Below, piece by piece: positions 10,926 through 29,155 of a DNA stretch of 29,234 bases (positions within the stretch are counted from its first letter, which is position 1; each line of letters begins with the position of its first letter). The position numbers and the translations under genes are program-made. Below the pieces are notes generated by a model. The model searched no databases. It saw only the letters and a program-made list of their open reading frames with translations, and was not told where the DNA came from. The DNA is from a virus: positions 1 to 29,234 of the IMG/VR virus record IMGVR_UViG_3300010396_000086; one strand, written 5' to 3'.

Positions 10926-11276
10926 TTAGTTTTTGATAGCCTGAAGGCTTTTCTTTACTTCCGCGTTAAATGCAGCAATATTTTTTTCATCTTCTGTTGG
11001 GTCTTTTTTGTCTTCTGTTTTAGCAGGAACAACCCCTTTTGGGCTTTTTGCTTCTATTTCAGCCAAAGCCTGTTTTGAAAATGCCTTACGGTTAAATTCT
11101 GCCATTGCCGTTTGTGTAAGTGTTTCACCTTCTTTTATGCCTTTGGCCACAGCTTCGGGATCAACATCTACATAAGCCATATAAGCACCAACCCTGTCGC
11201 GTTCCTGCATTACGCCAATTTTCACTGCTTCAATGAACAAATCGTGGTGTTGAGCCTTTAATTCTGCAAGTGTCAT
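10926..11276 (-). CDS. Possible separate scaffold protein from an internal in-frame start
   Basis: Met212 of the protease gene (ATG 11276) is preceded by an A-rich leader (ACACAAAACAATAACAAA), the type of initiation signal used in Bacteroidota. Starting there would give a 116-residue scaffold alone, as lambda Nu3 starts inside gene C. The preceding residues TTQNNN look like a flexible linker. This is inferred from the position and leader only. Confidence 0.4.
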   Translation of the reverse strand: MTLAELKAQHHDLFIEAVKIGVMQERDRVGAYMAYVDVDPEAVAKGIKEGETLTQTAMAEFNRKAFSKQALAEIEAKSPKGVVPAKTEDKKDPTEDEKNIAAFNAEVKKSLQAIKN

Positions 11277-11911: not shown

Positions 11912-11923
11912 TGTAATATTACA
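11912..11923. promoter_or_regulatory. Perfect 12-bp palindrome before the protease gene
   Basis: TGTAATATTACA lies three bases upstream of the protease ATG, in the leader. Its place suggests an operator or a leader structure controlling capsid expression, but AT-rich palindromes of this size can arise by chance. Confidence 0.3.
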
Positions 11924-11949
11924 CTTGCCGATATTGTGTGTAAAAAATG

Positions 11950-11967
11950 TTCCCCTCGGCGGGGAAT
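11950..11967. repeat. GC-rich palindrome, copy 1 of an 18-bp repeat
   Basis: TTCCCCTCGGCGGGGAAT forms a 6-bp stem (TTCCCC/GGGGAA) with a 5-nt loop and is identical, in inverted orientation, to 25162-25179. On the minus strand it is followed by CATTTTTT, so it could act as an intrinsic terminator between portal and protease. On the plus strand it lies just upstream of the promoter of the ribbon-helix-helix gene, where it could be an operator. It stands out in an AT-rich surrounding. Confidence 0.7.
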
Positions 11968-11983
11968 GAATCTTTTTAAATAT

Positions 11984-11991
11984 TAAATTTG
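11984..11991 (+). promoter_or_regulatory. Promoter -7 element for the ribbon-helix-helix gene
   Basis: TAAATTTG matches the Bacteroidota -7 consensus TAnnTTTG exactly and ends 16 bases before ATG 12008. No TTG is seen at the ideal -33 place; that position is occupied by the end of the GC-rich palindrome, which would let a bound protein block the promoter. Confidence 0.5.
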
Positions 11992-12007
11992 CTAAACACA
12001 CAATGCT

Positions 12008-12211
12008 ATGGAGAAGCAGCAGGAAACAGAAATTAAAAACTTACCTGAAAGAGAATTAAGAGTTAAAGGAGTTCCACGCCATTTAAAAAAAGAAATAAAA
12101 AGTCTGGCAGATTACGAAGGAACTGATATGTCTAAGTTCGTCAAGAAAATTCTCATAGAAAAAGTAAGCACATATCCTGAATACATGCGCAAATTCATAA
12201 AACAGGCATAA
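12008..12211 (+). CDS. Ribbon-helix-helix (Arc/CopG-like) DNA-binding protein, antisense in the late block
   Basis: 67 residues. A strand RELRVKGVP (about 15-23) is followed by helix HLKKEIKSLADYEG and then helix MSKFVKKILIEKVSTY, the beta-alpha-alpha order of ribbon-helix-helix repressors, which bind palindromic DNA as dimers. The protein is basic. It is encoded on the plus strand, opposite to all surrounding head genes, and its stop abuts the portal stop (12211/12212). It has its own likely promoter. This makes it an independently transcribed insertion; an autoregulatory role on the adjacent GC-rich palindrome is plausible but inferred. Confidence 0.7.
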   Translation: MEKQQETEIKNLPERELRVKGVPRHLKKEIKSLADYEGTDMSKFVKKILIEKVSTYPEYMRKFIKQA

Positions 12212-13861
12212 CTATTTTGCGTTGTCCTGTTTGTTATAATCCTGTTGAGCGTTCTGGTCTGCGGGTATACCCTCGTCACTTGACGTTTTTAATTCTTTAG
12301 CTGCTTGTTTGATATTTGACATAGAATCTCCACCATTCAATACTTCTGTTGCCGCTTCAACAGTTGTTAGTGGCACGCTTTCAAAAGCTGATCCCAATTT
12401 CAACCTTTCTGCCTGCACTTCTTTTAGCGGGTCAATATGCGGTACTGGGGCGCCTACAAATCTTGCGTTTCTATAAGCATCAACTACCATATAATTTTTA
12501 GTAGATAATGCTGTTAAATATCCCGGCGCTTCTACTTTATTTGTAAGTACCTGCACATCAAGCCACAGGTTATAAATATTCTGATAAAATTGATCTGCGA
12601 ATTTTTTACGCTCTACATGAAGCGAATGCTCCCAATCTTTTATTGCTGCGCGGCTTGCGCTGTAATTACTGTCGTATTTACTCATTGCCACTTCGGGCGG
12701 TATTCCCACAGTAGCACATACCAACTCAATATTTACTTCATAGAACTCTTTAAAATGTAATTCATTTTCACTTTCAAGGCTTTCAAGCTTTGCGCCTATT
12801 GGCATATTTATAACAGTCTTATCGGTAGATGCCGCAACCCTATCAGCGAGTTTTTGATTATTTATATCGCGTGGTATATCATCAGCAGGATTACGGAAAC
12901 CGCTTGCCATTGCCAGGCGTTCAGTTAATGGATTTTCACCCGTGCTTGTTGCATCGTGATTTATTGCATAAGGTATCTTTTGCCGTTCTTCTGCGCTTCC
13001 TATAGTTGCCTCTTTATATCGCTCCATCTTCTTTGCAGTCTCCATTATAGCAGATATAAGAGGAATGCCACGTATAGTATCGAGCCTGTAACCTAAACCG
13101 TAAACAAGAAATGCGGCAACATTGTCATTAGCGCCTCGAGCCGGTATGCGTTCATAATCTGTGCCTGATAAACCACTACGGACATAATAAGCGACATGCT
13201 GCTCCCTGTCGTCGATCTCAACGCCTAAGCGAACCCTATTACCATTAGCGGCAACATAATCCACACCACGAAAATTTAAATTCATCGGAGTAGCAATATG
13301 CACACCGTCTATAAGCTGCACAGTAACATATCCATTTTCATAACGTTGGATAACAAGGCAGTCCCCTCCTATAACGGCATTTAAAAATGCTTCCTCCGCT
13401 TTTTTGTGTAGGTTTTTATTGTTTGAATAGTCTGAACGTGTTGAATTGGAATAAATCTTAAACCGGCTTTCTGTTATTTTATTAAAATCCTCTGTATTTA
13501 ATTTTATCTTTTCAGACGCTAATAAGTCGTCCTGCGGCTCACATTGAAGTTTTAAGCCTGAGCCAATAACCCACCGTGTATATCTTTTAACGACCGTCTG
13601 GCATATCTCGCTTTCAAGATATAACTGCCAGCTACGAAGACGTAAAGCGTTATGGTCTATTATATACTTTCTTATAGGCCCTATCTCACCTAAATTCTTT
13701 TCGCCATTATAGCCAACAAGGTAAATGTTATTATACCGTATATCATTCTCTAATATAGCGTTGGATGCTACTTTCGGAGCATCATTATTTATTTTCGGAT
13801 CACTGAAATTAAAAATGTCTTTTATCTCAGCTTTTATTTTTTGATAATTAATTAATCGCAT
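12212..13861 (-). CDS. Portal protein, lambda gpB family
   Basis: 549 residues forming the dodecameric ring through which DNA enters the head. Recognisable parts: the N-terminal region with ARSRDLVRNN-type sequence here reading HNALRLRSWQLYLES, then VVKRYTRWVIGSGLKLQ, the segment EAFLNAVIGGDCLVI, the stem region (RGIPLISAIMETAKKMERYK) and NYSASRAAIKDWEH near the wing/clip border, all as in lambda-type portals. The C-terminus is a Gln/Asn/Lys-rich tail. It overlaps the gpW-like gene by 10 bases, as gpW and gpB are neighbours in lambda. Its stop faces the antisense regulator gene. Confidence 0.9.
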   Translation of the reverse strand: MRLINYQKIKAEIKDIFNFSDPKINNDAPKVASNAILENDIRYNNIYLVGYNGEKNLGEIGPIRKYIIDHNALRLRSWQLYLESEICQTVVKRYTRWVIGSGLKLQCEPQDDLLASEKIKLNTEDFNKITESRFKIYSNSTRSDYSNNKNLHKKAEEAFLNAVIGGDCLVIQRYENGYVTVQLIDGVHIATPMNLNFRGVDYVAANGNRVRLGVEIDDREQHVAYYVRSGLSGTDYERIPARGANDNVAAFLVYGLGYRLDTIRGIPLISAIMETAKKMERYKEATIGSAEERQKIPYAINHDATSTGENPLTERLAMASGFRNPADDIPRDINNQKLADRVAASTDKTVINMPIGAKLESLESENELHFKEFYEVNIELVCATVGIPPEVAMSKYDSNYSASRAAIKDWEHSLHVERKKFADQFYQNIYNLWLDVQVLTNKVEAPGYLTALSTKNYMVVDAYRNARFVGAPVPHIDPLKEVQAERLKLGSAFESVPLTTVEAATEVLNGGDSMSNIKQAAKELKTSSDEGIPADQNAQQDYNKQDNAK

Positions 13862-14163
13862 CCTGTAAAGTTTTTGCCGTCAACCATCCGTATCATACGA
13901 CCGTTGAGTCTGTTAACATACATTTGTTTTAATCTCTCAAATGCGTTTATTGCCTGAAATATGTCCGCAACGTCCCGATACCTTGTTTGTATTTTTGTCT
14001 GCCCGTCATCAAGGTAATACTCGTTGAAATTAGCAGTACCGGCAGCCTTGGTAGCAGTAACTATCAATGCATCTATTATAGCCTGTATAGCTGTTATCTT
14101 ATCCTGTAATGTCTGGCAGGAATCAATGTATATATCTGCACTATTGTATATTACTGGCCCCAT
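13852..14163 (-). CDS. gpW-like head-tail joining or portal-adjacent protein (103 aa)
   Basis: A short helical protein with an N-terminal helix (SCQTLQDKITAIQAIIDALI), a middle hairpin (YYLDDGQTKIQTRYRDVAD) and a C-terminal helix (IFQAINAFERLKQMYVNRLN). The centre 'DGQTKIQTRYRDVADI..AI..FE' follows the pattern of lambda gpW, a small alpha-beta head-completion protein, and the gene directly precedes the portal gene just as W precedes B. It is longer than gpW (68 aa). Assignment is moderate. Confidence 0.55.
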   Translation of the reverse strand: MGPVIYNSADIYIDSCQTLQDKITAIQAIIDALIVTATKAAGTANFNEYYLDDGQTKIQTRYRDVADIFQAINAFERLKQMYVNRLNGRMIRMVDGKNFTGCD

Positions 14164-14164
14164 G

Positions 14165-14698
14165 TTATAATGTTTTTATCTTATTATTTTTTGCTGGTGT
14201 TATATCTGCGCTACTATCTGTTCCTAATGTTGTGGTAACTGCAGATGAACCGCCACCTGTTTGCACACCCGGATGAACATGAGAATTAAATATGGTTACA
14301 AAATTGTTAAAATCATTTTTCAACTGATTGAATGCTGTTTCCAGTTTGCTATATAGGACAGCATTGTCTGTTGTTCCGCCTAATTCTATTTGTCCATCGC
14401 CTGCTGCGTTATGCAGCCATATGTACGTTATCAAATTTCCATCATTATCAGTAGAATACAATCTAAATTCCCCTGGTTGTGCTAATTGTTGCTTATTTAA
14501 GTAGCCAATAATAACCGGTTCACCTTTTGTTACAGTATCACTAAACACAGCGATCATGTCTTTAACGGCTGAACTATCCAAACCATAAGGTGTTGCTTCG
14601 TCCGCTGTCTGCACATCGCTTTTGCCAAATCGCAATACTTTCATCACGCGATAACCGCCATCTAGCACACTATTTATCACAGACGTTAATATGCTCAT
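14165..14698 (-). CDS. Baseplate spike, Mu gp45-like
   Basis: 177 residues. The N-terminal part includes an OB-fold-like stretch (KVLRFGKSDVQTADEATPYG, EPVIIGYLNKQQLAQPGEFRLY), followed by a helix and a C-terminal tip with NSHVHPGVQTGGGSS. His140-x-His142 corresponds to the metal-binding tip motif of phage membrane-piercing spikes such as P2 gpV and Mu gp45, where trimer histidines hold an iron ion. It overlaps the hub gene by ATGA, and hub plus spike adjacency matches Mu gp44-gp45. Confidence 0.8.
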   Translation of the reverse strand: MSILTSVINSVLDGGYRVMKVLRFGKSDVQTADEATPYGLDSSAVKDMIAVFSDTVTKGEPVIIGYLNKQQLAQPGEFRLYSTDNDGNLITYIWLHNAAGDGQIELGGTTDNAVLYSKLETAFNQLKNDFNNFVTIFNSHVHPGVQTGGGSSAVTTTLGTDSSADITPAKNNKIKTL

Positions 14699-15726
14699 AG
14701 AAATATATTTTTAGGCGTTGTAGACGAATATACTTCCGGCAATGTGCATGTAAGCGTTGCCACCTGTGCGTTATTATCTCCTTTCAGTTCCACGCTTGTA
14801 ATAAAAAACTTTGTTTTCTTATAGATATACAGATCAGGGTTTGTAACTGTAATAATATTGTTCGGCCTAATGACTTTATTGTTTAGTGTCCACCTGTCAA
14901 GGTCTATAGTTAATGTAAGTCCTTTTAATTCCTCACTCAGCATATTCCTTGCACACAATGCAGTATCTACATCTGTTCCCGATGTCTGCCGTGTAACATG
15001 TGGCCTGAATGTACTGGTAACATAAGGATTAGAAAATGAAGATTGCCCGGCATTCCCTTTCCCTGTTTTTGTAGCTTGCTTTTGTAGTGTTATGCTACTG
15101 TGCATTCTTTGCCCGTCAAAATTCAACTCCATAGCAACATTAGGCATACCGTTAGTAAAATCAAATATAGGTTGCTGTGTTATTTTTGCTTGTGTCAATA
15201 ACAGGTTACCCATTTCGTCATGCGATAACATTACATGCTTTTGCCCTGCTAATTCACACAAATATGATTTTACAGTTTGTTTATCATCTGCGGTAGTGCT
15301 TTTATATACGCTATTTACATTACTTGATACCGAAGGATCAATAACAAGGTTCAACCCGAAAGGCTTTATTATTCTTTGTGCTATATTACCAAGAGACAAT
15401 CCTATCGCTTGTAATGGGTATGATGATGTAGGTATTTCGCAATCTTCAAGTACTCCCGTTTTTGAATAGCCTGATATTGTTACGCCACGTCTTACAGAAT
15501 CACTTTTGAATTTTGGGCTAAGTAATATACCTGTTATTAACCGTTCACCGTTATGATCTATGGTAACAGGCGAATATGAACCGGGTAAAAACATGGCTTT
15601 ATGGTCAGCATTGTTTGGGTCAAAATAGAAATCAAAAGAAAATGCGGATGCCACACTATCATAATGAAGCGCAACAGATACGTTATTGTATAAGTCTAAT
15701 TTTCTCGTTCCTATTTTCAATTCCAT
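14695..15726 (-). CDS. Baseplate hub protein, Mu gp44 (P)/P2 gpD-like
   Basis: 343 residues. The opening (LKIGTRKLDLYNNVSVALHYDS), the segment DHNGERLITGILLSPKFKSD, then SKTGVLEDCEIPTSSYPLQ and IAQRIIKPFGLNLVID match the T4 gp27/Mu gp44 hub family, trimers at the tail end on which the spike sits. A later part (GNLLLTQAKITQQPIFDFTNG and PNNIITVTNPDLYIYKKTKF) agrees. Positioned between the circularisation-domain gene and the spike, as in Mu. Confidence 0.85.
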   Translation of the reverse strand: MELKIGTRKLDLYNNVSVALHYDSVASAFSFDFYFDPNNADHKAMFLPGSYSPVTIDHNGERLITGILLSPKFKSDSVRRGVTISGYSKTGVLEDCEIPTSSYPLQAIGLSLGNIAQRIIKPFGLNLVIDPSVSSNVNSVYKSTTADDKQTVKSYLCELAGQKHVMLSHDEMGNLLLTQAKITQQPIFDFTNGMPNVAMELNFDGQRMHSSITLQKQATKTGKGNAGQSSFSNPYVTSTFRPHVTRQTSGTDVDTALCARNMLSEELKGLTLTIDLDRWTLNNKVIRPNNIITVTNPDLYIYKKTKFFITSVELKGDNNAQVATLTCTLPEVYSSTTPKNIFL

Positions 15727-16956
15727 TTAAACGTAGTATATAATTTGCCTGCCTTTTCTTAATAAAAGTTTCTCATTCAGTCCTATACCATTGTCGTTAA
15801 CAATCTTATCTATTGTGCTGTCGTCAGGTAATAACCCATATATAGAATTAGCCACTAAAATCACATTAGTGTCATTATCTAAATATGTTATCCTTTGTTG
15901 CTTTGAACTGGCCGCTATATCCAGTAATGCACTTACAGTATAACTAAGTAACTGGCTTAGAGCATTCAGCGCATCAGGATCAGGTATATAGCTATCGGGG
16001 CTACCACCATTAACTGTTTGTAATCCATCAAGACTTGTAACATAAGTATTATAATAGCCAACCAATGAATCAATAACAGATATAACCTGTGTAGTATTGG
16101 CGTAGTCATCAGTAATATTTGTAACTGATGCCATTAATAGCGTCGTTATGATTGTACCTGCGTTATTTTCATACAATTTTTTTGACGATGGGGACGAAAC
16201 ATTTACTATAGTAGAGCCGATAAAGTTTAATAAGTTGCCAAGCATCTGCACTCTGTTTACAACACTATCCACAAATGTTGCAGGTAATGATATTAAAGCC
16301 TGCATAACAGCAACAGCATTTAGCACGTTATCCGTTGCATCATCTATTGCAGCCAATGCGCTGTTATAAGCATTAAAGTATGTCGCAAAATCGTCTGAGC
16401 TTATAATAGATGATTTTATAGTATTAAAAAAGCCATTAACATTATTTGTCATGCTATTTATGTCGCCGGCTTTAGGATTGGGTACATCTGTAGCGAAAGT
16501 ATTTGCAAATAGAGTGTCACAATTAGCTTTATCATTAGTTATTTTATCCGGTGCTGATATGGTAACTATGTTGCCATCACTTAATAGCGTTTCAATAACA
16601 TTTGCAATAATTTTTGTAACATTATATTCAGCATTGTCATAAGTCATTGACACCGGCTGAACATACAACTGCCCATAATAAGGGTGTGATATTGTCCACG
16701 GTGCAGGATTAGCAGCCGATACTTCAAAAGATGATGACACGTCTAAATGATCGTCTCCCTGAAAATATATCTCTAACACATATTTCGTACCTCTTGGCGT
16801 ACCTCTGTAAACCAACGTCCCTGCAAGCTCCTTAAATTCAAAAGTCGCAATATTATATTCTATTCCTTTGGACGCATTAAGCCAGCTAACAGTATAGCTT
16901 GTGCCATCGCCGCATGTTATAGTGTAATCCTGCTGTACTTTATCTAACCAACTCAT
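15727..16956 (-). CDS. DNA-circularisation N-terminal domain protein, Mu gp43 (N)-like
   Basis: 409 residues. The first 110 residues (CGDGTSYTVSWLNASKGIEY, FKELAGTLVYRGTPRGTKYV, APWTISHPYYGQLYVQPVSM) resemble the 'DNA circularisation protein N-terminus' domain of Mu gene N, in fact a baseplate/tail component in current structural understanding. The rest is helical and Asp/Asn/Ser-rich with repeated ITT/VIS segments. It overlaps the Z-like gene by four bases and directly precedes the hub, as in Mu (N-P-45). Confidence 0.7.
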   Translation of the reverse strand: MSWLDKVQQDYTITCGDGTSYTVSWLNASKGIEYNIATFEFKELAGTLVYRGTPRGTKYVLEIYFQGDDHLDVSSSFEVSAANPAPWTISHPYYGQLYVQPVSMTYDNAEYNVTKIIANVIETLLSDGNIVTISAPDKITNDKANCDTLFANTFATDVPNPKAGDINSMTNNVNGFFNTIKSSIISSDDFATYFNAYNSALAAIDDATDNVLNAVAVMQALISLPATFVDSVVNRVQMLGNLLNFIGSTIVNVSSPSSKKLYENNAGTIITTLLMASVTNITDDYANTTQVISVIDSLVGYYNTYVTSLDGLQTVNGGSPDSYIPDPDALNALSQLLSYTVSALLDIAASSKQQRITYLDNDTNVILVANSIYGLLPDDSTIDKIVNDNGIGLNEKLLLRKGRQIIYYV

Positions 16957-17684
16957 TTTAATATTCTTTTCTTTGCTTCCTCAACAAAATATTGCTGTAG
17001 TTTGTTGCCGCTCGTTAAAGCTGCCTTTTCCATGAACGCTGTAGCTTTTGTCCTTACTTTGCGCCCTTGTTTTACTGCGAACATGGGCACAGACTTTACT
17101 ATAGTGTTTTTACCTTTCCTTACCACGCTACGGATCTGAAATAGTATTTTATTACCTTTGCTATTGCGCCTATTGCCAATCACCCAGCCGCCCTTACCAG
17201 CATGAACTGCGCTTTTGATAAACTTCTCTTTATCATTTTTACCTTGCGCCTTTTTACTATCTACTATCTTGCTTTTCACATCTGCTATACGTGCCTTTGC
17301 TTTAACATTTCGGTTCCAGCTTGTACCCGAACGAGCCTGCTTTAATGGTATAAATGACCTGCCTCCAATAACCCCTCCTTTTTCCTGCTCCTGCAGGTCT
17401 TCTATTGCATTCCCTTTACTTCTTAATGGCACAAAACCAACCTTTGACTGCATGGAATTAATATCAAATCCTAAAGCTGGCACAACTTTTGAATTAGCTT
17501 TGAAAAATGTAGGTTTTCGTTCTATGAAAGATTTTTTAGCGCTTGCAGGCATTGTATTGGTCTTTACGTCAAAAGCTGCCTTATTTAATGCAGTACGTAC
17601 AGATACAGGCAATGCCGACTTGTTTATCTTTTCAAGTTTGTTGGCAAAACCTACCAAAGCTTCCGTATCTATATTTATCTGCAT
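16953..17684 (-). CDS. Lambda gpZ-like minor tail/tail completion protein
   Basis: 243 residues, very basic (runs such as KKSFIERKPTFFK, VVRKGKNTIVKS, KQGRKVRTKA). The start (VGFANKLEKINKSALPVSVR, then TALNKAAFDVKTNT) and the end (KLQQYFVEEAKKRI) follow the gpZ/gpS-type tail completion pattern, in which a helix with paired LN..A residues is followed by an Arg/Lys-rich part that may contact DNA at the tail end. Here it is placed between a fibre-like gene and the baseplate genes rather than beside the connectors. Identification is moderate. Confidence 0.5.
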   Translation of the reverse strand: MQINIDTEALVGFANKLEKINKSALPVSVRTALNKAAFDVKTNTMPASAKKSFIERKPTFFKANSKVVPALGFDINSMQSKVGFVPLRSKGNAIEDLQEQEKGGVIGGRSFIPLKQARSGTSWNRNVKAKARIADVKSKIVDSKKAQGKNDKEKFIKSAVHAGKGGWVIGNRRNSKGNKILFQIRSVVRKGKNTIVKSVPMFAVKQGRKVRTKATAFMEKAALTSGNKLQQYFVEEAKKRILK

Positions 17685-18310
17685 TATATCTGCCTATAAC
17701 TTAATCCATCTAAATAAACTGTGCACGCTGCTGTTGATGTAACATTCAATGTTAATAATCCAGTAGTATCCATTGTCAACGTCACAGGCGTTAATGTACC
17801 TCCTATAGAAGCCATTGCTCCCATCTGCACTTTTTTAGATACAGGTGCTATCAATGTTGCCTGAAAAATTGGCGAAGTGCCACTTCCGCCCAATGCCGAT
17901 ATATGTACTTGTCCACAAAGATTAACAACGCTTGCAGGCGCTAATGAAAACAATCCACCAGGTGCTGATAATATTTGAAATGCTGCATTATTAAATGAAC
18001 CAGCCACATTAGCCCATGTATTAGAAATATCTGTTTGAAATACTAATCCTAAACTTTCAAAAGGGGGGAAAATAATATTCATTAAAGATTTTAGATATTG
18101 AAACCCATTACCTTCATCTTCTGGCAAATTATTTGGCGAAGTGCTTGTAAGTCGTAATATCTTAGCGAAAAATTGATGTATATCTCCTATAGTGCTTTCT
18201 TTTAAAGGAGTGCCCACAACCCCTGCCGGATCATCTTTTATCCTTCCATTAGGGAAGTTTGTAGGATCTGTCGTGTCTATGTTTGGATAATTTTGAATAC
18301 CTATTGCCAT
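17684..18310 (-). CDS. Probable short tail fibre or baseplate-associated protein (208 aa)
   Basis: The N-terminal 75 residues (NFPNGRIKDDPAGVVGTPLK, then IGDIHQFFAKILRLTS and NLPEDEGNGFQYLKSL) form a segment common in fibre-like proteins of Bacteroidota phages, probably the attachment part. The rest is beta-rich with many Thr/Ser/Gly residues (GTLTPVTLTMDTTGLLTLNV), ending YLDGLSYRQI. It comes directly after the gp48-like gene, the position of the fibre gene S in Mu. Receptor binding is inferred, not shown. Confidence 0.55.
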   Translation of the reverse strand: MAIGIQNYPNIDTTDPTNFPNGRIKDDPAGVVGTPLKESTIGDIHQFFAKILRLTSTSPNNLPEDEGNGFQYLKSLMNIIFPPFESLGLVFQTDISNTWANVAGSFNNAAFQILSAPGGLFSLAPASVVNLCGQVHISALGGSGTSPIFQATLIAPVSKKVQMGAMASIGGTLTPVTLTMDTTGLLTLNVTSTAACTVYLDGLSYRQI

Positions 18311-18311
18311 A

Positions 18312-19109
18312 TTATATGTAGTTTATGAATAAAAATCCTATTGTTTGTTGTGGTTTGATCTGTAATATTAATTGCCTGAACTCATCATGCCTACCTGCCA
18401 CAACCGTAGCAAATGTGCTAATAGTATTACCGGCTATAAAAAACGTACTTCTGTAATTACTTCCGAAATTGAACGGCTGATCTTTTGTTTCGTCAATATT
18501 ATTTGCAATTATTGTAATGTTATTTGCAGATGTTTGACCTGATTGTATCTGTCCTGATTGACAAAAATCTGATTCGGCCTTTAAATTTCCAGTTCCAACC
18601 ACTGAGCTTGGCGCTACTGCCATAAAGCCACCATGTCCATCGCTAAATATATTTTCATAAACAAATACATTAAATCCAGCGGCTTGTAATTGATCTTGCA
18701 GGTAATCATGAGCTTGTCGTGGTGCTACAGTGCCTGGGTATGCCATTTTTTGTGAAATGGCAGCTTTCATATCTGATAAAGTCACAAAGCCTGAATTAAA
18801 AATGCCTAATCTCCTATACCAATCGTTAGCATCGTCTATGGTGAAGTTGTTATTGTCAGGTAGTATATCATTTAAAACGCTTAAAGCATCCTGAAAAGCC
18901 TGATCTTCACTTAATGCCAAAGCTGCGTGTAATCTTGCCAGGTTTCCATTTAATGTGCTATCTATAATACTTGTTGTGCCATCCTCCGTTACTATATCTT
19001 CTACGCCATCTTCATCTATAAGCAATTTCGCATTGCCTACAGGCATTTTAAATGCTCTGCCTTTAGGGTAAAGTATACTCGATAGCCATAATAAAGTGTC
19101 GTTATACAT
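18312..19109 (-). CDS. Baseplate protein, Mu gp48 / DUF2313-like
   Basis: 265 residues. The N-terminus LLWLSSILYPKGRAFKMP is the typical 'L.LLPPGRAW' start of this family. The sequence then has ARLHAALALSEDQAFQ, and the wedge-like segment DDANDWYRRLGIFNSGFVTL, KAAISQKMAYPGTVAPRQ and YLQDQLQAAGFNVFVYEN. In Mu, gp48 works with gp47 to form the wedge of the baseplate. Here it overlaps the J-like gene by 8 bases. A beta-rich C-terminal extension (FRQLILQIKPQQTIGFLF) follows. Confidence 0.75.
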   Translation of the reverse strand: MYNDTLLWLSSILYPKGRAFKMPVGNAKLLIDEDGVEDIVTEDGTTSIIDSTLNGNLARLHAALALSEDQAFQDALSVLNDILPDNNNFTIDDANDWYRRLGIFNSGFVTLSDMKAAISQKMAYPGTVAPRQAHDYLQDQLQAAGFNVFVYENIFSDGHGGFMAVAPSSVVGTGNLKAESDFCQSGQIQSGQTSANNITIIANNIDETKDQPFNFGSNYRSTFFIAGNTISTFATVVAGRHDEFRQLILQIKPQQTIGFLFINYI

Positions 19110-20265
19110 AACTTACAGAATGCAGGTAAGGAATATTGCCAAGATCAAATACATAAGAAGTTTCAGGAGTAGAATTTATGTCAAGTGTTACGCTACTGAA
19201 AATAAGCCCTGGTATAGTATTTAATATGACGTTTATTATATTATTTGTACTTAAAATGTCATTTTTAGCAGTAATGGCATCAGCACCAGGTATAAAAGGC
19301 CGGATCGTTGATATAGCTTGTGTCAAGGCAGCTGTTATCAATGCCTGCTGTGCTGTTGTTATAGTTCCTCCGCTATTTATTGTTATGTCCACATTGTTTA
19401 TGATGATAGCGGCGACGTTAACTGCTAATACTCCTAATGGCTTACGGCCTTTGCCGGTTATTGGATCAGTTGCAATATCATTTGATACTGCTGTTAATAT
19501 TGTTGAAGTAGGTGTTCCTTTGCCGTCTGTGCTATCAGCAAGTATAGCCTCTACAAATACATTGATCTCATTTGGCAGGCCGCTTGCAGTATATGGATAT
19601 ATTTGCTGTACACCTGCAGCATCTGAACCCCATAACCGGTAATCTGCTGATGATCCACCCTCCGGATTAAGCCTGTAAGCCTGTAATGCTTTAGCCCTGT
19701 ATTGCTCTGTTGTTTCCGCATCTATTGGAGAAACAGCAACGCTTCCAACTACAGCGCCTGAATTTACATTTATTATTGGAGCAGTAGCCGTTAGTGTATC
19801 GCTTATATTCAAAGAAGATATCGTACCGCCAGTTAATGCCCTTAGTATTATTGTGCCAGTACCTGATGGCATTGTATATGCGGTATCGAGTATAAATAAA
19901 TAACCGGGATTTAAGCTGCTATCATCACTTTTAAATAAGGTCTGCGCGGGTATAACCGCACCCATTGCGCCAGTAACTGTGCAATTATATTGTGCCTGCG
20001 TTGCTGTGAATGGGTTTCTTCCAAGTTTTATAAGCCCAAACCTTTCAAGTGTGCCGCCTTGCGATGCAGGATCTGCAGTATCGACGAATATGTTTTTTTG
20101 CAAGTCTCCTATAGCGAGATAAAACAGCTTTAACTTAGCTGCCTGTACTGCTGCTTGTGCGCGTAAGAATGATTTACCGAAAGGTGAAACAGTGGCATTA
20201 AACTCGGTTTGAAGGTCTGCGAGAATATCATTATATAATTGCGATATAGTAGGAATATTTATCAT
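19102..20265 (-). CDS. Baseplate J-like protein, Mu gp47/P2 gpJ
   Basis: I start at ATG 20265, where the preceding TAA overlaps it as TAATG, giving 387 residues; 13 further residues are open upstream. Family features: IPTISQLYNDILADLQTEF at the start, ATQAQYNCTVTGAMGAVIPAQTLFK (in two parts) for the middle strand region, the segment SPIDAETTEQYRAKALQAYR, then SSADYRLWGSDAAGVQQIYP, and INVFVEA. These are diagnostic of baseplate J proteins that form the wedge dimers in contractile tails. The position after gp46 and before gp48 agrees with Mu. Confidence 0.9.
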   Translation of the reverse strand: MINIPTISQLYNDILADLQTEFNATVSPFGKSFLRAQAAVQAAKLKLFYLAIGDLQKNIFVDTADPASQGGTLERFGLIKLGRNPFTATQAQYNCTVTGAMGAVIPAQTLFKSDDSSLNPGYLFILDTAYTMPSGTGTIILRALTGGTISSLNISDTLTATAPIINVNSGAVVGSVAVSPIDAETTEQYRAKALQAYRLNPEGGSSADYRLWGSDAAGVQQIYPYTASGLPNEINVFVEAILADSTDGKGTPTSTILTAVSNDIATDPITGKGRKPLGVLAVNVAAIIINNVDITINSGGTITTAQQALITAALTQAISTIRPFIPGADAITAKNDILSTNNIINVILNTIPGLIFSSVTLDINSTPETSYVFDLGNIPYLHSVSYV

Positions 20266-20681
20266 TATACCTGATAATTTAAAAATGCTGTAGACGGGTT
20301 CCACTGCATGTAAAAAGTATTGCCATTTATTGTTATTTCTATATCAAGCCTGTCAGGATTAACGACAGAAGTAGTAACATCTACTGTAGTGCCGGAAATG
20401 TTTGACTTTAAAAAAGCAAGATCATTTTTTATTGCAGTTTCTATCTTTATCCTCCCGGCACTATTAAGTGTTACTTCACGCATAACCCTTTCAGTCTGAG
20501 AAGAAAAAAATACGCTGCTATCGTTGTTGGAAAATAATAGGTTATTGCCCCACCAATCACCATCACCACTGAACATTGCCAGGTATGGCATATTTTCAAA
20601 CCCTTCAACAATAGCCATATCATTGCCTTGTTGTAATAGGTCACCACCGTTCCCTGTTTCTATAATAAGTGCGTCTATCAT
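20265..20681 (-). CDS. Baseplate wedge protein, Mu gp46/T4 gp25-like
   Basis: 138 residues. The pattern DALIIETGNGGDLLQQGNDMAIVEG... with SGDGDWWGNNLLF and then TERVMREVTLNSAGRIKIET is typical of the GP46/gpW-gp25 family, whose lysozyme-like small subunit primes sheath polymerisation on the baseplate. The C-terminal strands (VVNPDRLDIEITINGNTFYM) agree. It overlaps the tape measure gene by four bases (ATGA) and the J-like gene by TAATG. Confidence 0.85.
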   Translation of the reverse strand: MIDALIIETGNGGDLLQQGNDMAIVEGFENMPYLAMFSGDGDWWGNNLLFSNNDSSVFFSSQTERVMREVTLNSAGRIKIETAIKNDLAFLKSNISGTTVDVTTSVVNPDRLDIEITINGNTFYMQWNPSTAFLNYQV

Positions 20682-22600
20682 TGGAATTGCCCTACTGTTG
20701 GTGTTAATTTAATTGGTATGCCACTATTTTTAGTTACCGCTGCATGAGTCCCGTTTGTTGCCTTTACTGTTATTTCCGCAGTGTGATTTGTATTATTCTG
20801 CGTTCCGCTTGTTTTCTGATAATGCTCGATCAGTTTGGGATCAACAGAGCTATTGGCCGACTTGTCCTGCTCTTTATTATCTTCTGTTTTTGATTGCTCA
20901 TTATCCCATTGCAGTTTCCATGCAGGTACTTTAATATCGCCAGCGGCATTAGCCGCTGCTATAGCAGTTGCCTTAATATTATCAACCGGCATTTTCATTT
21001 CTTGTTTTATCCGTGCTTTATCTTTCTCATACTGAGCGTCAGATAGATTGCCTATCATATTCTGCCCCCATTTCCATGCTAATACCATTGCATCAACCAT
21101 TGTAAGGAATGTATTTTTGAGTACAAGCCATTCCAGTTGCAAACCGAGGCTTACTGCTTTCCATACAGCACCCATCCAATGCGTTATCTCATCCCATTGC
21201 GCACCCCAGCCTTTAACATGCTTTACCAATATCACTATACCGGCCACTAAAGCTGCTATACCGAGTATAAGTAAACCTATAGGGTTGGCATCAAGGGCAA
21301 TATTTAATACCCATTGCGCTGCCTGCCATAACCATGTAGCTTTTGTTACTATTCCGATAATACCCGATACTGTTGCTATACCTAACAGCAAGCTACCTAT
21401 AGCAGCAGTAGAAACAACAATAACTGTAGCAAGCTTTTCGTGAGTATGTATCCATTCGGTAAAATGCTGTATTATAGGAACAACCCTATCTATCAGCTTA
21501 TCAACTATTGGCAATAATTTTTCACCTATAGTAATAGACAATGCTTCAAGATTATTTTTTGCAAGCTGGCTATGCGCTTTGCTTGTTTCCATCTGCTTAT
21601 TAAATGCCTCATCTACCTTGTTGATGCCATTGGACATATCTTCAAGGTTTTTAACATAGGCATTATTCTGCGAACCATTTAACAGTGTAACTGCCGTGAA
21701 CGCTTCTTTACGTCCCCATGCTTTTGCAAGATTTATACCCGCTTTTGTGCCGGCGGTTTCCACCGCTTTGAATGCTCCACCTAAGCCATGCATTTTATCA
21801 ATAAGTTCTTTACCGGTTTTCACATGCAATTCATGGAATATCTTTTGCATTTCACCAGTAGGCTTTAAAAGTGAAACAACTGATCCCATTATCTCATGCT
21901 GTGCCTCTGATGCTTGCAAGCCAGTGAGTGTTAATGCAGCGGTTGCGGCCTGAAAGTCTTTAAATTTTACACCTGCAGCGTTTACTATAGGCGCCGTCGA
22001 ACCAAACGCCTCATTAAGCTGTGACATGGTAGTTTTCCCCGCAGCAACTGTTTTAAAGAATATATCAGCTATCTCATTGGCGCTAAGATTTTCATTTTTA
22101 AATACGTTTAATGCAGATGTCATTGCGTTTGTGGCCTCTGTTGCAGTAGACAAACCGGCTACTGATAACCTTGCTGATTGCTCCAACACTTCCATTGCTT
22201 TAGCGGCAGGTATGCCTGCAGACCGTATCTGATAAAGTGCCTGTGTGAGATCATCGATAGCAACAGGTGTACGTTGTGCTATTTTCAGCACCTCGTCACC
22301 CATAGCAACCATACTTTCTTTCGAAGTATCTACCAATGTTGCCACATTGCTCATTTTAACCTGGAAATCTTCTGCAGCCTTTGTAGCTAATACCAAGGGC
22401 GCGAGTATTGCAGCACCTGCTATAGCTGTTTTTTCTGCTATGTTCATAGCCGCGTCGTGTACCCTGCGCAAACTGCGTTCCATCCTTGCGGCATCTGCAT
22501 GTGCCCTGTCTGCAAGGCTATCTATAGATTTCCCCATTCCGGCAATTGGCGCCGAAAATTTATCTACAGCTTTAAATATGGCAGGCAGTACAAATTCCAT
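20678..22600 (-). CDS. Tail tape measure protein, TP901 type
   Basis: 640 residues, the ruler that sets tail length. The N-terminus is helical with Ala-rich heptads (ADRAHADAARMERSLRRVHD); the core (AEDFQVKMSNVATLVDTSKE, then RTPVAIDDLTQALYQIRSAG and FKTVAAGKTTMSQLNEAFG) is the TP901 tape measure domain; a hydrophobic zone lies at about 390-465 (AAIGSLLLGIATVSGIIGIV, then GLLILGIAALVAGIVILV). The C-terminus is charged and Thr/Asn-rich. The ATG overlaps the stop of the frameshifted chaperone (TAATG), as usual for this gene pair. Confidence 0.9.
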   Translation of the reverse strand: MEFVLPAIFKAVDKFSAPIAGMGKSIDSLADRAHADAARMERSLRRVHDAAMNIAEKTAIAGAAILAPLVLATKAAEDFQVKMSNVATLVDTSKESMVAMGDEVLKIAQRTPVAIDDLTQALYQIRSAGIPAAKAMEVLEQSARLSVAGLSTATEATNAMTSALNVFKNENLSANEIADIFFKTVAAGKTTMSQLNEAFGSTAPIVNAAGVKFKDFQAATAALTLTGLQASEAQHEIMGSVVSLLKPTGEMQKIFHELHVKTGKELIDKMHGLGGAFKAVETAGTKAGINLAKAWGRKEAFTAVTLLNGSQNNAYVKNLEDMSNGINKVDEAFNKQMETSKAHSQLAKNNLEALSITIGEKLLPIVDKLIDRVVPIIQHFTEWIHTHEKLATVIVVSTAAIGSLLLGIATVSGIIGIVTKATWLWQAAQWVLNIALDANPIGLLILGIAALVAGIVILVKHVKGWGAQWDEITHWMGAVWKAVSLGLQLEWLVLKNTFLTMVDAMVLAWKWGQNMIGNLSDAQYEKDKARIKQEMKMPVDNIKATAIAAANAAGDIKVPAWKLQWDNEQSKTEDNKEQDKSANSSVDPKLIEHYQKTSGTQNNTNHTAEITVKATNGTHAAVTKNSGIPIKLTPTVGQFQ

Positions 22601-23162
22601 TACTTTAGCTTACTTATAAAGTCCAGTGTATCTTCATACCAATATTCCAAACCTTGATGATCTACATTATCTAAAAAGAGCCTGTCTATTACAACAGGCT
22701 CCCAATGATGATCGCGTATGATTGTTTTTATCATTCTGTTTAAGTCTCCATCTACAGAAAAAAAACCGCTATAGATTGACAAATAGTATTATCCTCTGTA
22801 TCCAGTTTCGCTAACATGCCTGCTGATTGTCCTGTCAATGCAGATACATATGCCATTATACGGCCGTCTGAATCACCTGCTTTAACAATCTTCATACGTG
22901 TTTGCAATTCACCAACGCTTATACGTGGTTTATATTCAAGCGTAGTAAGCGCATCATTACCTGAACTGTCCTTTACAGGGAATATCAGTGTATGAATTAT
23001 CTTATTGTTTTCGTCAATAGATATAACACCATTGGTCATTACATCTATAAGCGTATCAATAGCATCCTTATAGGTATCACGCTTTTTGTCTGATACTTTT
23101 TTGTAATCCAGCCATCCGTCAATTTCAAGCTTAGCCTGATCGTATGATACTTTCGGTTCCAT
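22600..23162 (-). CDS. Tail assembly chaperone, long form made by -1 frameshift
   Basis: Ribosomes that slip back one base on the T8 run (minus-strand GTTTTTTTTC, 22757-22766) leave the short chaperone frame just before its stop and read on in the frame ending at 22600. The fusion is about 187 residues; its extension contains VDGDLNRMIKTIIRDHHWEP and ends YWYEDTLDFISKLK. A short and a long chaperone from one gene pair, just before the tape measure gene, is conserved in tailed phages (lambda G/GT, Mu gp41/42-type); the two forms coat the tape measure during tube assembly. An independent start at ATG 22782 is possible but the frame arrangement favours slippage. Confidence 0.75.
22752..23162 (-). 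CDS. Tail assembly chaperone, short form
   Basis: 136 residues ending in TAG at 22752-22754. It starts EPKVSYDQAKLEIDGWLDYK, continues with TLIDVMTNGVISIDENNKII and the beta segment HTLIFPVKDSSGNDALTTLE, and ends with helix VSALTGQSAGMLAKLDTEDN and IAVFFL over the slippery run. The size, position between tube and tape measure, and the shift site identify it. Its start ATG directly follows the tube stop (TAAATG). Confidence 0.75.
   Translation of the reverse strand: MEPKVSYDQAKLEIDGWLDYKKVSDKKRDTYKDAIDTLIDVMTNGVISIDENNKIIHTLIFPVKDSSGNDALTTLEYKPRISVGELQTRMKIVKAGDSDGRIMAYVSALTGQSAGMLAKLDTEDNTICQSIAVFFL
22757..22766 (-). other. Programmed -1 ribosomal frameshift site
   Basis: On the minus strand the message reads GCG GTT TTT TTT CTG TAG. 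The run of eight T residues allows both P- and A-site tRNAs (Phe) to re-pair after slipping back one base, entering the frame TTT TCT GTA GAT. The zero-frame stop follows four bases after the run. No strong stimulatory hairpin is obvious downstream. Confidence 0.75.
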
Positions 23163-23567
23163 TTATATTTGTTTTAATATTCCTCCGCCTGATAATTTAA
23201 GAGCGAACGTTGCGTTATTACCATTACCCGACATATCACCGACCGGTTTGCCTATTGCACCGTACACTGTACCGTTAATGTGTGTAAATGTCCAGTTTGC
23301 AGCCACAGGGTCAGAAGCTAAAGCGACTAATGCCTCCAATTCTTCACGTACATTCATATCCCAGGCAATAGTAGTTTCAAAACTCCATCGTACACGGGTC
23401 ATTTTATCTATCATTGTCCCACTGCCATCTACACCTTTGTTATCATCTTCACTGCGCATGCCGCCCAAATCATACTTGCTTTCCTCGCTTGCTTTAGGAT
23501 AGATGATACCACTGCCTATTGTCGGGTGATTGTATGTTATCTCAATTATATCGCCGCCTACAGCCAT
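23163..23567 (-). CDS. Tail tube protein
   Basis: 134 residues, beta-rich, placed between sheath and tail chaperone, the fixed position of the tube gene in contractile phages (Mu M). Sequence parts such as DIIEITYNHPTIGSGIIYPK, RWSFETTIAWDMNVREELEA and WTFTHINGTVYGAIGKPVGD fit a small beta-barrel that stacks in hexamers. The family cannot be named from motifs alone, but order and size make the role likely. Confidence 0.7.
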   Translation of the reverse strand: MAVGGDIIEITYNHPTIGSGIIYPKASEESKYDLGGMRSEDDNKGVDGSGTMIDKMTRVRWSFETTIAWDMNVREELEALVALASDPVAANWTFTHINGTVYGAIGKPVGDMSGNGNNATFALKLSGGGILKQI

Positions 23568-23589
23568 TGTATAATTATTTTATAGTTTA

Positions 23590-25110
23590 TTAATTACCGA
23601 AATTGAAGCCAGCCTCAGCAGTTGTCGAAGCAATACGTAAATATCCAGTCCTCTTATACCTAAAGAATGTTTCCAGTCTGTCAGGATTTGTCGTGCTTAT
23701 ATTTACCTCTGTGCTTGACTGCATGAATGATGCATCTGCTATTAGTGCACGTTTCGCAAGGTCATTAGCATAGTTTGCTATGATCTGTGTCCACTGCTTT
23801 GGCTTAATAACATTTGTAGCTGTTACAACATCCCCATCATTTGCTATTGCATGGTCAACAACATTTGCCAATTCCAAAAGATAATAGCCATATCTAATGT
23901 TAAAGTCTAACATTAGATTGCGGCAATATCTGAACTGAGGGGGTATTTCACCTGATGGCGCATAGGTTGTTACAAAGTCCTGAACCTGGTAAGCCCCTGC
24001 AACTATATCCACAGTAGAGCAGCCTAATTGTACATAAGCATCTCTATTGTTATAATCCTGCATTGCTATTGTTGTTCCGGCGACAGGTAGAGGCATATCG
24101 GGATAACTTTGCCCTGAAACATCAAGATGTGGACTGTTCTGCGCTGCATTACTGAACAATACAGCCATATTTGCTGCAGCTTCATAAGGCATACCTTGTG
24201 AAAGTGGAGCAGGGCATATTGCTATAGTAACATTTGACGGCCTTACACCGGCACTTGTTATAGATGTTGGATTATCAAGCGTGCTACCTGTTAGCGCAAT
24301 AAATGGTTTGAATATTGTTCCCGTATATCTTCCTGATGGAGTATTAGGATCCGGTATGCCGTTAAACGCTTCATATTCAGCCATTGTAGCAGATACTGCA
24401 CCATAACCGTTGATAACGATAGTGTTCCAGTCTGAACCGAACAATTGTAATGAAGATGTAACCGTTGGCGTGCCGGTACCAGCAACAGTTTGAGCTACTG
24501 CGTAAGTAACGCCTATAGAAGTATTATTTGAATCTACAGTTATCGAAATATCCTGTGATGTTAACCCTGTCCACTCTGCGGTACACGTTACAACACCTGC
24601 AGTGTTTGCTGCAGATACAGGACATGATAAAACATTGTTTATTGCGGTAACTATTTTACCGGCTATAACAGTAGGCGTATCTCCATTAACAATATTTACA
24701 GCATAAGCGCTACCATCTATGATCTCACGGCCATTAATATTTATATAATGAGTGCCATTTGCAGTAGCTGTTCCCGTAACTGTTATAGTCATAGCCTTAG
24801 CTGCTGAACCGCCTGCAGCCAATTGTGCAAAAGCAATTACGGGAACTGTTACACCGCCTCCGTTTACCGGAAATAATATACGCATGATAGCATACATAGG
24901 GCTTGAAAACCCATATAGTTTGCCAGCCTGCGCCGCTGATGTAATTTGAACAGGAGAGGTTGATAACCCTGATTGGTTTGCCGTACTTGCTTCTGCTAAT
25001 ACCGCTATACGTTGAGGAAGATTTGGAGAGGAAGTATTGAAAGTCCCTTTTGTCAGTTGATATCCTACAATACGTGATATTCTGTTCAAGGCTACCGCGG
25101 TGCTACTCAT
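23590..25110 (-). CDS. Tail sheath protein, Mu gpL-like
   Basis: 506 residues, the contractile outer layer of the tail. The N-terminal arm has PNLPQRIAVLAEASTANQSG and the strand-rich outer domains include TITVTGTATANGTHYINING. The C-terminal core (VVTATNVIKPKQWTQIIANY, ending with RLETFFRYKRTGYLRIASTT) matches the sheath C-terminal domain, in which the two terminal arms weave neighbouring subunits together. The order sheath-tube-chaperone-tape measure matches Mu L-M-Y-41/42. The gene begins 75 bases after the terminase stop; the gap holds copy 2 of the GC-rich palindrome. Confidence 0.9.
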   Translation of the reverse strand: MSSTAVALNRISRIVGYQLTKGTFNTSSPNLPQRIAVLAEASTANQSGLSTSPVQITSAAQAGKLYGFSSPMYAIMRILFPVNGGGVTVPVIAFAQLAAGGSAAKAMTITVTGTATANGTHYININGREIIDGSAYAVNIVNGDTPTVIAGKIVTAINNVLSCPVSAANTAGVVTCTAEWTGLTSQDISITVDSNNTSIGVTYAVAQTVAGTGTPTVTSSLQLFGSDWNTIVINGYGAVSATMAEYEAFNGIPDPNTPSGRYTGTIFKPFIALTGSTLDNPTSITSAGVRPSNVTIAICPAPLSQGMPYEAAANMAVLFSNAAQNSPHLDVSGQSYPDMPLPVAGTTIAMQDYNNRDAYVQLGCSTVDIVAGAYQVQDFVTTYAPSGEIPPQFRYCRNLMLDFNIRYGYYLLELANVVDHAIANDGDVVTATNVIKPKQWTQIIANYANDLAKRALIADASFMQSSTEVNISTTNPDRLETFFRYKRTGYLRIASTTAEAGFNFGN

Positions 25111-25161
25111 TGTGTACTCTTTGGCGCAATTTAGCAGCGTTAAAGCAGCACTATATTTTTA

Positions 25162-25179
25162 TTCCCCGCCGAGGGGAAT
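25162..25179. repeat. GC-rich palindrome, copy 2 of an 18-bp repeat
   Basis: The minus strand reads TTCCCCTCGGCGGGGAAT... within a longer conserved block: A6, two bases, then the palindrome, then a purine and A, exactly as at 11944-11969 on the plus strand. It lies between terminase stop (25185) and sheath ATG (25110). On the plus strand it is followed by GTTTTTT, so the terminator-like side faces antisense transcription, not the late operon. Operator or RNA-processing use is possible. Confidence 0.7.
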
Positions 25180-25184
25180 GTTTT

Positions 25185-27185
25185 TTAAGCAGCTTCGCCT
25201 GTTACAATTTCTACATATTCTTTCCACGTGAAATTTTTAATTTTAAGCTCCTTGCCGATAAGGCTCACGACTATCTCACGCAATGCTATATTATACACCC
25301 TGCAGTCCCACATGTGGTTTTGGACATTGCTGCTTTTCTTTATCCATCGTGCCGCTATGCCTGCACCTTCAGTATTGGTATCTATAACACGATGCTCACT
25401 TTCGAAGTGCTCAAAATAATTGGTAAAGCCATAAAGCCCATTGCTCGGTTGTGGGAAGTTCATAAAATAATTTGGCTGGCTGTCGTCGTTCTCGCTCCAT
25501 TTCAATGCCATATAATCACTAAGATCGTCTTTTATCAGCCCCACTTCAAGTATATAAAGCTTTGAACGTTCACGCGCTGGTTTGAATAATGGTACATCTA
25601 TACCAAACTTTATATATTTATCTGCCTCTTTACCCTTCAATCCTATAACATGGCTATTTGTTGCATCTATATAAGCATATGCGAAGTTGCTATAATGCCC
25701 GCAATCTAAACCGGAAACGAATATTTGCATATTTCGTCCGGTATCTGTTTTGTATTGTTGGCTTATCAATAGATCAAATTCTTTCCATACGCTATTTGGG
25801 CTATTCCTTTCATAGGACCAATGCTCGCGATCTACTTTGTGCTTACGCGTATTCTCACGTGGTATAAATGTTCCTATACTACCATGCTGTACACTATAAC
25901 TTGCCCCTGTTTCAGTCCATGCAACTATCTCATAATCTAAACGCGCATCATCTACCAGACCATTCATATCTGCAGCACATGTAAGCAAAACTATTTTGCC
26001 ATTACCATCATTGATACTTAATTTTTCCGGTAAGGTGCCAATATCATATGGCCTGATATTCTTTTGTATAGAGTTTGCCTTTGGCGCTTCTGCTGAGCTT
26101 TCATATGCTTCACCTAAACAGGTATTTACAAATACCTGGTATTGCGTTTCTATACGTGGTTGATTAGGAGGATTACATGCTATAAGGTTTTTTACATACT
26201 TAGCCCAATCAAACATACCGATAGGAGCGTAAAGGCTTGGTATGTGATAACTGTAATATCCCTCCTCGCTGGGCGTGGCTGTTGGTTTCCACATGCCTCC
26301 ATTAAGCAGATTATATTTATCCTTGTCATTAAAAAAACCTGCGCATTGTTGACAAACATAACCCACAGAACTTTCTATCAATTGTCCCTGGCTATTTAAT
26401 TCCCAGGTCATACCACCACCTTCGGGTACACTCCATTTTAAAACTATAGGCTCATGGCAACAAGGGCACTCTACAAAGAAGTTACGCTGATCCCCCGCTA
26501 AATATGCCGGCTCAATAAGCGATGTTGTTTTAACAAGAGGTGTGCTGATTAAGAACATCTTATAAATGTCTTTATAAGCCGCTGCACGTTGTTCAATGAG
26601 TTTTATAAGGCTACCTGATTCCTTAGATTGCCCTCGCATAGCATCCAAGTCATCCAAAAAAATGTATTGCAGATCTACCTGGGCTATTGCCTTATGGTTG
26701 TTTGCACTGCCTATAGACACATACCCGCCTGAAAAGTCCTTTTTAAAGTTAGTATCTCCCGATTTATTAGCCCTGTTTCGTTGTACCTGCGGCTTTATAT
26801 ACGACCTTAAACCAGCGCCGTCTATCATAAGGTCAAGCTTTTCTACAGCTTTTGGGATAAGATCAGGAGCGCCAACCATGAAATAACAGTTGCCAGGGTT
26901 GTTTTTTATCATCCAGCCGATACCTGGGATTATTATACCTGAGCTAAAGCCGATTTGTGCACCTTTCATCACAGCAACCTTACGAGCCGGATGGTCAGGA
27001 GCTAAGCAATCTATAATTTCTCTTGCATATGGTGTGTAGTTGTACCTGAATGGTCCGGGGCGAGGCTTGCCCATCACTACGTTTTGTTCAGTCCATTCAG
27101 AAGGCTTTATCGTGGATATTTGCGCAATCCCAGAAGTGATAATATCCTTTAATTGTGAAGTATATAAGTTACTATCGTTGAACAC
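25185..27185 (-). CDS. Terminase large subunit, lambda GpA family
   Basis: 666 residues; the motor and nuclease that package DNA. GTG 27185 is the only plausible start, as a stop lies five codons upstream. ATPase: Walker A-like KGAQIGFSSG (74-83) and Walker B IFLDDLDA (175-182). A zinc-ribbon follows (CPCC at 240-243 and CQQC at 278-281), as known for GpA. Nuclease: Asp407 in LTCAADMNGLVDD and the segment LDYEIVAWTETG, then YSVQHGSIGTF and later QIFVSGLDCGHYS. GpA-type terminases usually cut at specific cos sites. The stop is followed by the GC-rich palindrome. Confidence 0.9.
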   Translation of the reverse strand: MFNDSNLYTSQLKDIITSGIAQISTIKPSEWTEQNVVMGKPRPGPFRYNYTPYAREIIDCLAPDHPARKVAVMKGAQIGFSSGIIIPGIGWMIKNNPGNCYFMVGAPDLIPKAVEKLDLMIDGAGLRSYIKPQVQRNRANKSGDTNFKKDFSGGYVSIGSANNHKAIAQVDLQYIFLDDLDAMRGQSKESGSLIKLIEQRAAAYKDIYKMFLISTPLVKTTSLIEPAYLAGDQRNFFVECPCCHEPIVLKWSVPEGGGMTWELNSQGQLIESSVGYVCQQCAGFFNDKDKYNLLNGGMWKPTATPSEEGYYSYHIPSLYAPIGMFDWAKYVKNLIACNPPNQPRIETQYQVFVNTCLGEAYESSAEAPKANSIQKNIRPYDIGTLPEKLSINDGNGKIVLLTCAADMNGLVDDARLDYEIVAWTETGASYSVQHGSIGTFIPRENTRKHKVDREHWSYERNSPNSVWKEFDLLISQQYKTDTGRNMQIFVSGLDCGHYSNFAYAYIDATNSHVIGLKGKEADKYIKFGIDVPLFKPARERSKLYILEVGLIKDDLSDYMALKWSENDDSQPNYFMNFPQPSNGLYGFTNYFEHFESEHRVIDTNTEGAGIAARWIKKSSNVQNHMWDCRVYNIALREIVVSLIGKELKIKNFTWKEYVEIVTGEAA

Positions 27186-29128: not shown

Positions 29129-29155
29129 AATAGGGTAACAGTAAGTTACCCTATT
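29129..29155. terminator. Perfect 11-bp hairpin, possible terminator or operator
   Basis: AATAGGGTAAC and GTTACCCTATT (arms 29129-29139 and 29145-29155) surround a 5-nt loop. A mixed TTTCATTT tail follows on the plus strand. It may insulate the late promoter from transcription entering from the right, or be a protein site near the parS-like element. The rest of 29005-29234 shows no gene. Confidence 0.4.

Follow-up and report, generated by a model that had tools for sequence, protein, structure and literature searches.

Gene content of the window and its identical palindromes

The window, that is, the whole stretch of DNA analysed here, is a virus record of 29,234 bases (GC = 38.5%) that is recognized by its PHROG matches as a contractile-tailed phage. 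Flavobacterium and Cellulophaga phages are among its relatives (terminase, 36%), as are contigs filed under Bacteroidota genomes. Two identical copies of an 18-bp palindrome, TTCCCCTCGGCGGGGAAT, lie at 11950-11967 (plus strand) and, inverted, at 25161-25178. Their symmetric core is 17 bp long, TTCCCC-TCGGC-GGGGAA, and consists of a 6-bp arm, a 5-bp spacer and a second 6-bp arm. A pair of 30-bp inverted repeats (11941-11970 and 25158-25187, 90% complementary) encloses these dyads. The genes and dyads concerned are the following:

10926-11909, minus strand: head maturation protease, at the start of the head operon (PHROG 94)
11950-11966, plus strand: putative operator dyad 1, centred on 11958, with the protease on one side and the RHH gene on the other
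12008-12211, plus strand: putative RHH regulator gene, 67 aa, divergent from the protease, with the strand ...RELRVKGV...
12212-13861, minus strand: portal, last gene ahead of the RHH gene (PHROG 21)
23590-25110, minus strand: tail sheath, at the start of the tail operon (PHROG 165)
25162-25178, minus strand: putative operator dyad 2, an identical inverted copy of dyad 1 ahead of the sheath gene, centred on 25170
25185-27185, minus strand: terminase large subunit, upstream of dyad 2 (PHROG 15)

The first copy is flanked by the protease start (11909, minus strand) and the small plus-strand gene at 12008-12211, and the second by the end of the terminase gene (25185) and the beginning of the sheath gene (25110). 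When up to 3 mismatches to the 17-mer were allowed, a scan of the window returned these two places only, and the mean in 100 shuffles was 0.00; the two palindromes reported by the first-pass annotation are thus real. They also occupy the gaps in which it had placed them, but the block between them is not simply the tail module that it had described, since the portal gene lies inside as well. Across IMG/VR, the exact 17-mer was found outside the window in 3 stretches only, which look unrelated by eye. The longest hairpin detected in the window is located elsewhere, close to the contig end: a perfect 11-bp stem, AATAGGGTAAC / GTTACCCTATT, with a 5-base loop (29129-29155).

Gene order in related phages

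The portal was used to collect 22 related loci, and in 20 of them the protease comes after it in the same orientation; the two departures are a rearranged locus (L024) and one that ends (L027). The tail genes are mostly found ahead of the portal, as far as the contigs reach, and the larger related records display the order terminase, sheath and tail genes, portal, protease and capsid. In two of them (G004 and G012), several kilobases separate the terminase from the sheath site and the site remains with the sheath gene, which links the second site to the sheath and not to the border of a module. More generally, the dyads of the relatives keep to the two promoters even when other genes stand in between. 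The best cultured matches in the INPHARED collection are FL-1 and FCL-2 (wedge protein, 38-41%), in which, judging from coordinates and annotation, the head genes apparently come before the tail genes on one strand.

Paired elements private to each phage

To study the paired sites of the relatives, the portal-protease gap of each record was set against the roughly 400 bp that precede its sheath gene, and the best shared ungapped element was retained. Two gaps were compared because operators with unpaired inner arm bases, such as those of L078, L095, L075 and L020, escape a blind search for palindromes that is restricted to the RHH-protease gap. The analysis comprised 35 distinct related records having both regions; records lacking one of them were left out, as were copies that agreed fully over 150 bp on each of the two sides. 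In 25 of the 35 records, the pairing of a phage with itself scored higher than all 34 cross-phage pairings, and 27 exceeded the 99th percentile of the 1190 cross pairs. The sister phages L160 and L190 fall short solely against one another. A smaller earlier set of 27 records, from which L133 had been dropped as a near-copy of L068, gave a similar picture: 20 own pairs scored above all 26 cross pairings, and all of these but one (L080) also surpassed each of the random 300-bp windows drawn from the same record. Convincing pairs are missing from two of the 35 records despite the presence of an RHH gene (L175 and L218), and the pairs are weak in L080 and L220; the dyads of L082 and L125 are visible, but their pair scores are low.

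A clean dyad of the 6-5-6 type was found in 19 records: 21 of the 35 passed the rule, three were removed since the chosen 17-mer was not dyad-like (L086, L134 and L167), and L117, with an AT-rich perfect dyad, was added by hand. The arms differ between phages, as in TTCCGTTATCAACGGAA (L068), TTCCTT-N5-AAGGAA (L042), GTCCCCTCTTTGGGGAC (L136) and CTGTAG-N5-CTACAG (L211), and in these 19 records the two best sites in the DNA examined are generally those of the protease and sheath gaps. In many relatives, both copies have the same orientation. The first-pass annotation had held that relatives with the same gene order and no such palindromes would speak against its reading: the exact sequence is indeed absent from them, but most carry a pair of their own.

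In six records (L084, L134, L211, L063, L071 and L075), the stretch shared by the sheath and protease sides extends over 46-88 bases, which gives the impression of a recent transfer of entire promoters from one operon to the other, perhaps through gene conversion. The protease promoters of L063 and L065, as well as the sheath promoter of L063, carry a further dyad about 23 bp downstream of the first, with the sequence GTCTAA-N5-TTAGAC or one very similar.

The putative RHH regulator

Using an iterated profile, an RHH-like reading frame on the opposite strand was found in 49 of 55 distinct portal-protease gaps; when distant records are included, such a frame is present in 61 of 80 distinct protease upstream regions. 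The model of the window protein has helices at residues 24-37 and 41-55 (pLDDT 77.6), the strand being unassigned in the monomer. Most of its structure matches are RHH proteins, such as Arc, CopG, AmrZ and antitoxins (Z up to 5.8), with Foldseek probabilities up to 0.91 and weak E-values; misses in the structure search were not counted as absence. Against Pfam RHH_5, the window protein scores 13.3 bits and its best-scoring relative (the L071 protein) 17.5 bits, for a cut-off of 26. Because we judge these scores to reflect a limit of profile sensitivity, we claim the fold and not the Pfam family, and the product of 12008-12211 is accordingly described as a predicted RHH-like protein. The INPHARED collection contained no match to an RHH relative.

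Ten of the 49 gap proteins have two RHH domains in one chain (L017, L083, L109, L112, L122, L125, L160, L165, L168 and L190). For some two-domain regulators (L086/L017, L160, L190 and L168), the shared element lacks clear symmetry.

The paired element occurs in 24 of the 32 records with an RHH gene and in 1 of the 3 without, a difference that is not significant (p = 0.19). No RHH gene was found elsewhere in the short-gap records (0 of 6), and both positive controls were recovered. Two of these gene-less gaps, of 61 bases, have no convincing pair (L089 and L119), and three distant records without an adjacent RHH gene (L139, L142 and L145, absent from the 35-record set) have no shared element. 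L167 has a 72-base gap and a 35-base element that is shared before the protease and the sheath gene at an equal distance to the -7 box, although its 39-kb record contains no RHH gene; in this phage, the factor could be encoded elsewhere.

Covariation of a strand residue with a base of the putative operators

The residue designated x is the position that follows the strand motif in E-[IL]-R-[IV]-x and corresponds to Lys20 in the window protein. The strict test was made on the 16 single-domain records among the 19 with a clean dyad; L109, L122 and L125 encode two-domain proteins and were left out. Lys or Arg at x is accompanied by C at arm base 5 in 7 of 7 cases, and any other residue by a base other than C in 9 of 9 (Fisher p = 8.7e-5, a value that is not fully independent because the rule was first spotted by eye on part of the same data). 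A better guide is a blind scan of 140 residue-base column pairs on the same records, in which x and arm base 5 come first (z = 4.7; the next pair has 2.7). When seven records with a protease-side site only were added, admitted if the dyad was 44-57 bp from the protease ATG, the two-by-two table read 7 and 1 in its first row and 1 and 14 in its second. Two records without an aligned strand residue (L008 and L202) were counted there as 'other'; by eye, the residue of L008 is Met and its base C, which makes it an exception. Outside the strict set, the exceptions to the rule are L008, L024 and the two-domain L125.

The Lys/Arg state changed at least 5 times on the portal tree, close to the mean of 5.5 for shuffled labels, so common descent alone is an unlikely cause of the covariation. 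A test on tree pairs cannot reach significance since only 2 independent pairs stand on well-supported branches. According to the alignment ranges of the structural matches, residues 16, 18 and 20 of the window protein correspond to positions 9, 11 and 13 of Arc, its base-contacting residues. The outward-facing strand residue would seem to go with an operator base, as is expected of RHH proteins.

Geometry of the predicted promoters

With the 19 clean-dyad records aligned by the centres of their dyads, the -7 box was scored as TAnnTTTG, one mismatch being allowed. It starts at +37 or +38 in 13 of 19 sheath promoters and 14 of 19 protease promoters, and the mean box score peaks at +37 with 4.32 and 4.74 of 6 (overall means 1.96 and 2.12). 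On the RHH side, the offsets are scattered (10-47, mostly 15-28). Eight of the 16 other records show an equal distance between shared element and box at both promoters (L080, L086, L160, L167, L168, L185, L190 and L220, with L160 and L190 being sisters). In 20 of 21 records, 48-55 bp separate the dyad centre from the protease ATG; since the corresponding distance to the sheath ATG ranges from 59 to 99 bp, the dyad is anchored to the promoter and not to the gene. The corresponding boxes in the window are:

11914-11921, minus strand: TAATATTA, -7-box-like (4/6 to TAnnTTTG), starting exactly 37 bp away on the protease side of the dyad 1 centre
11984-11991, plus strand: TAAATTTG, -7 box of the RHH gene, matching TAnnTTTG in full and located 26 bp from the dyad 1 centre
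25126-25133, minus strand: TAAATTGC, -7-box-like (4/6 to TAnnTTTG), starting exactly 37 bp away on the sheath side of the dyad 2 centre

The predicted protease -7 box is overlapped by a 12-bp palindrome, TGTAATATTACA (11912-11923).

Bacteroidota promoters have a -33 element, so named from its position, and a T-run occupies this position in the stack of late promoters. The promoters appear to fit the -7 box type of the Bacteroidota sigma-A, with starts that are predicted. As the TAnnTTTG box of F. psychrophilum spans -12 to -5 (excerpts of PMC9723704), the dyad centre would be near -49 at the predicted late promoters. Dyad 1 would also overlap the -33 region of the RHH gene, because the -7 box of this gene is only 26 bp from the dyad centre.

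Proposed mechanism and alternative explanations

We consider it probable, with good confidence, that the two dyads are twin operators of one phage RHH regulator, the product of 12008-12211, which activates the head and tail operons and represses itself. That the palindromes might be operators of a single regulator encoded by this gene was among the suggestions of the first-pass annotation, and the relatives support it strongly. Two RHH dimers would occupy each site, one on each 6-bp arm, and the third outward residue of the strand (Lys20 in the window) would read the fifth arm base. At the protease and sheath promoters, the protein would sit around -49, just upstream of the -33 region, where it would most likely aid the RNA polymerase, and both late operons would be turned on together. 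At its own promoter, where the site overlaps the -33 region, it would repress its gene. The comparison of sequences provides the paired phage-private sites, their linkage to the RHH gene, the residue-base covariation and the fixed spacing, from which we infer binding by the RHH protein, activation over repression and the timing. A fixed spacing upstream of -33, together with the overlap at its own promoter, is the usual geometry of a self-repressing activator; the spacing favours activation without proving it.

Several other scenarios may be envisaged. One possibility, which we hold to be rather unlikely but deserving of attention, is that the same RHH protein, at the same sites, acts as a repressor in the manner of P22 Arc: it would silence both late operons and its own gene early in infection, and late expression would begin once the protein is diluted or removed. 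Most characterised RHH proteins are indeed repressors (excerpts of PMC3325190), and the dyad overlaps the likely -33 region of the RHH gene. Nevertheless, a near-fixed site-to-box spacing of 37-38 bp, upstream of -33, would be needless for repression, and the plain T-run that stands in place of a -33 TTTG at the late promoters also speaks against it.

The dyads could also be terminators, one of the options of the first-pass annotation; these would be intrinsic, perhaps bidirectional, and would insulate the tail block. In the window, a terminator scan lists both as terminator-like, six T flank each of them on one side, and the T-run of the first copy faces the portal-to-protease direction, which would be compatible with an additional terminator role there. 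Yet the side of the T-tract is not conserved, as the T-rich flank of the 19 sheath sites points toward the gene in 8, away from it in 9 and to neither side in 7 (some count for both). Moreover, the arms are AT-rich in several phages, some with just 1-2 GC pairs, the sites stand upstream of predicted starts at a fixed spacing, and the sharing of arms within but not between phages would be needless for a terminator. We thus find this explanation very unlikely.

It seems more improbable still that a host regulator, and not the phage RHH protein, uses the sites. The pair of L167, in which no RHH gene was detected, would speak for it, but the arm sequence follows the strand residue of the adjacent phage protein and the other gene-less gaps (L089 and L119) lack a convincing pair. 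Finally, the dyads can hardly be inverted repeats that arose from, or served for, insertion or inversion of the tail module. Traces of insertion or recombination were the third option of the first-pass annotation, and the mutually inverted window copies on either side of the block would speak for them, but this reading is not supported: the tail-portal-protease order is common to the relatives, whose copies often have the same orientation and stay at the promoters, including the sheath site of G004 and G012.

Implications

On a broader scale, we lean slightly towards the view that a large group of uncultured Bacteroidota myophages uses an RHH activator of its head and tail operons, with a role like that of Ogr and a different fold, and that the paired operators of this activator evolve rapidly and keep pace with the protein. 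If this is true, such drift would make the group a natural record of the RHH recognition code (Lys/Arg with C, Thr/Pro with A, Tyr with G, and so on), and the naturally matched pairs of protein and operator would render this code testable by simple swaps. The record would also include fused chains of two RHH domains in some members, several with less symmetric operators. The same view would offer a mechanism for the timing of late genes in Bacteroidota phages, a possible activating role for a fold known mainly from repressors, and a rule for recognizing late promoters in uncultured phages, namely a private, repeated dyad 37 bp upstream of two -7 boxes. Searches of the open-access PMC literature returned no description of an RHH late activator of phage structural genes, and none of late promoters or a late activator in Bacteroidota phages.

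Comparison with known systems

P22 Arc resembles the proposed regulator in being a phage RHH protein and is among the best-aligned structures (Z 5.5-5.6). It is a repressor, however, whereas the window sites occupy fixed upstream positions at two late promoters. AmrZ and AvtR share with the proposed regulator the RHH fold and the combination of self-repression with activation elsewhere. According to excerpts of PMC3325190, AmrZ represses its own gene and activates another, binds two half-sites that are 5 bp apart and contacts guanine through the third strand residue, Arg22. AvtR, a viral protein with tandem RHH domains in a single chain, likewise represses its own gene and activates another (PMC5569661, in excerpt). 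Nevertheless, neither is known to serve phage structural operons as a late activator. AmrZ exerts its effect on algD from -282, and AvtR comes from an archaeal virus.

The remaining comparison is with Ogr of P2 and delta of P4, which are likewise small phage proteins; in a myophage, they activate several late operons, for the head as well as for the tail, from a short dyad ahead of each late promoter. The four late promoters of P2 have TGT-N12-ACA dyads for Ogr (excerpts of PMC3931495). In contrast, the window dyad is of the 6-5-6 type, private to the phage and seen at two sites only, and Ogr is a C4 zinc finger, whereas the window protein has no cysteine and a predicted RHH-like fold. Since it lacks the zinc finger, the window protein is not a member of the Ogr family, but Ogr provides the closest working parallel to the regulator proposed here.
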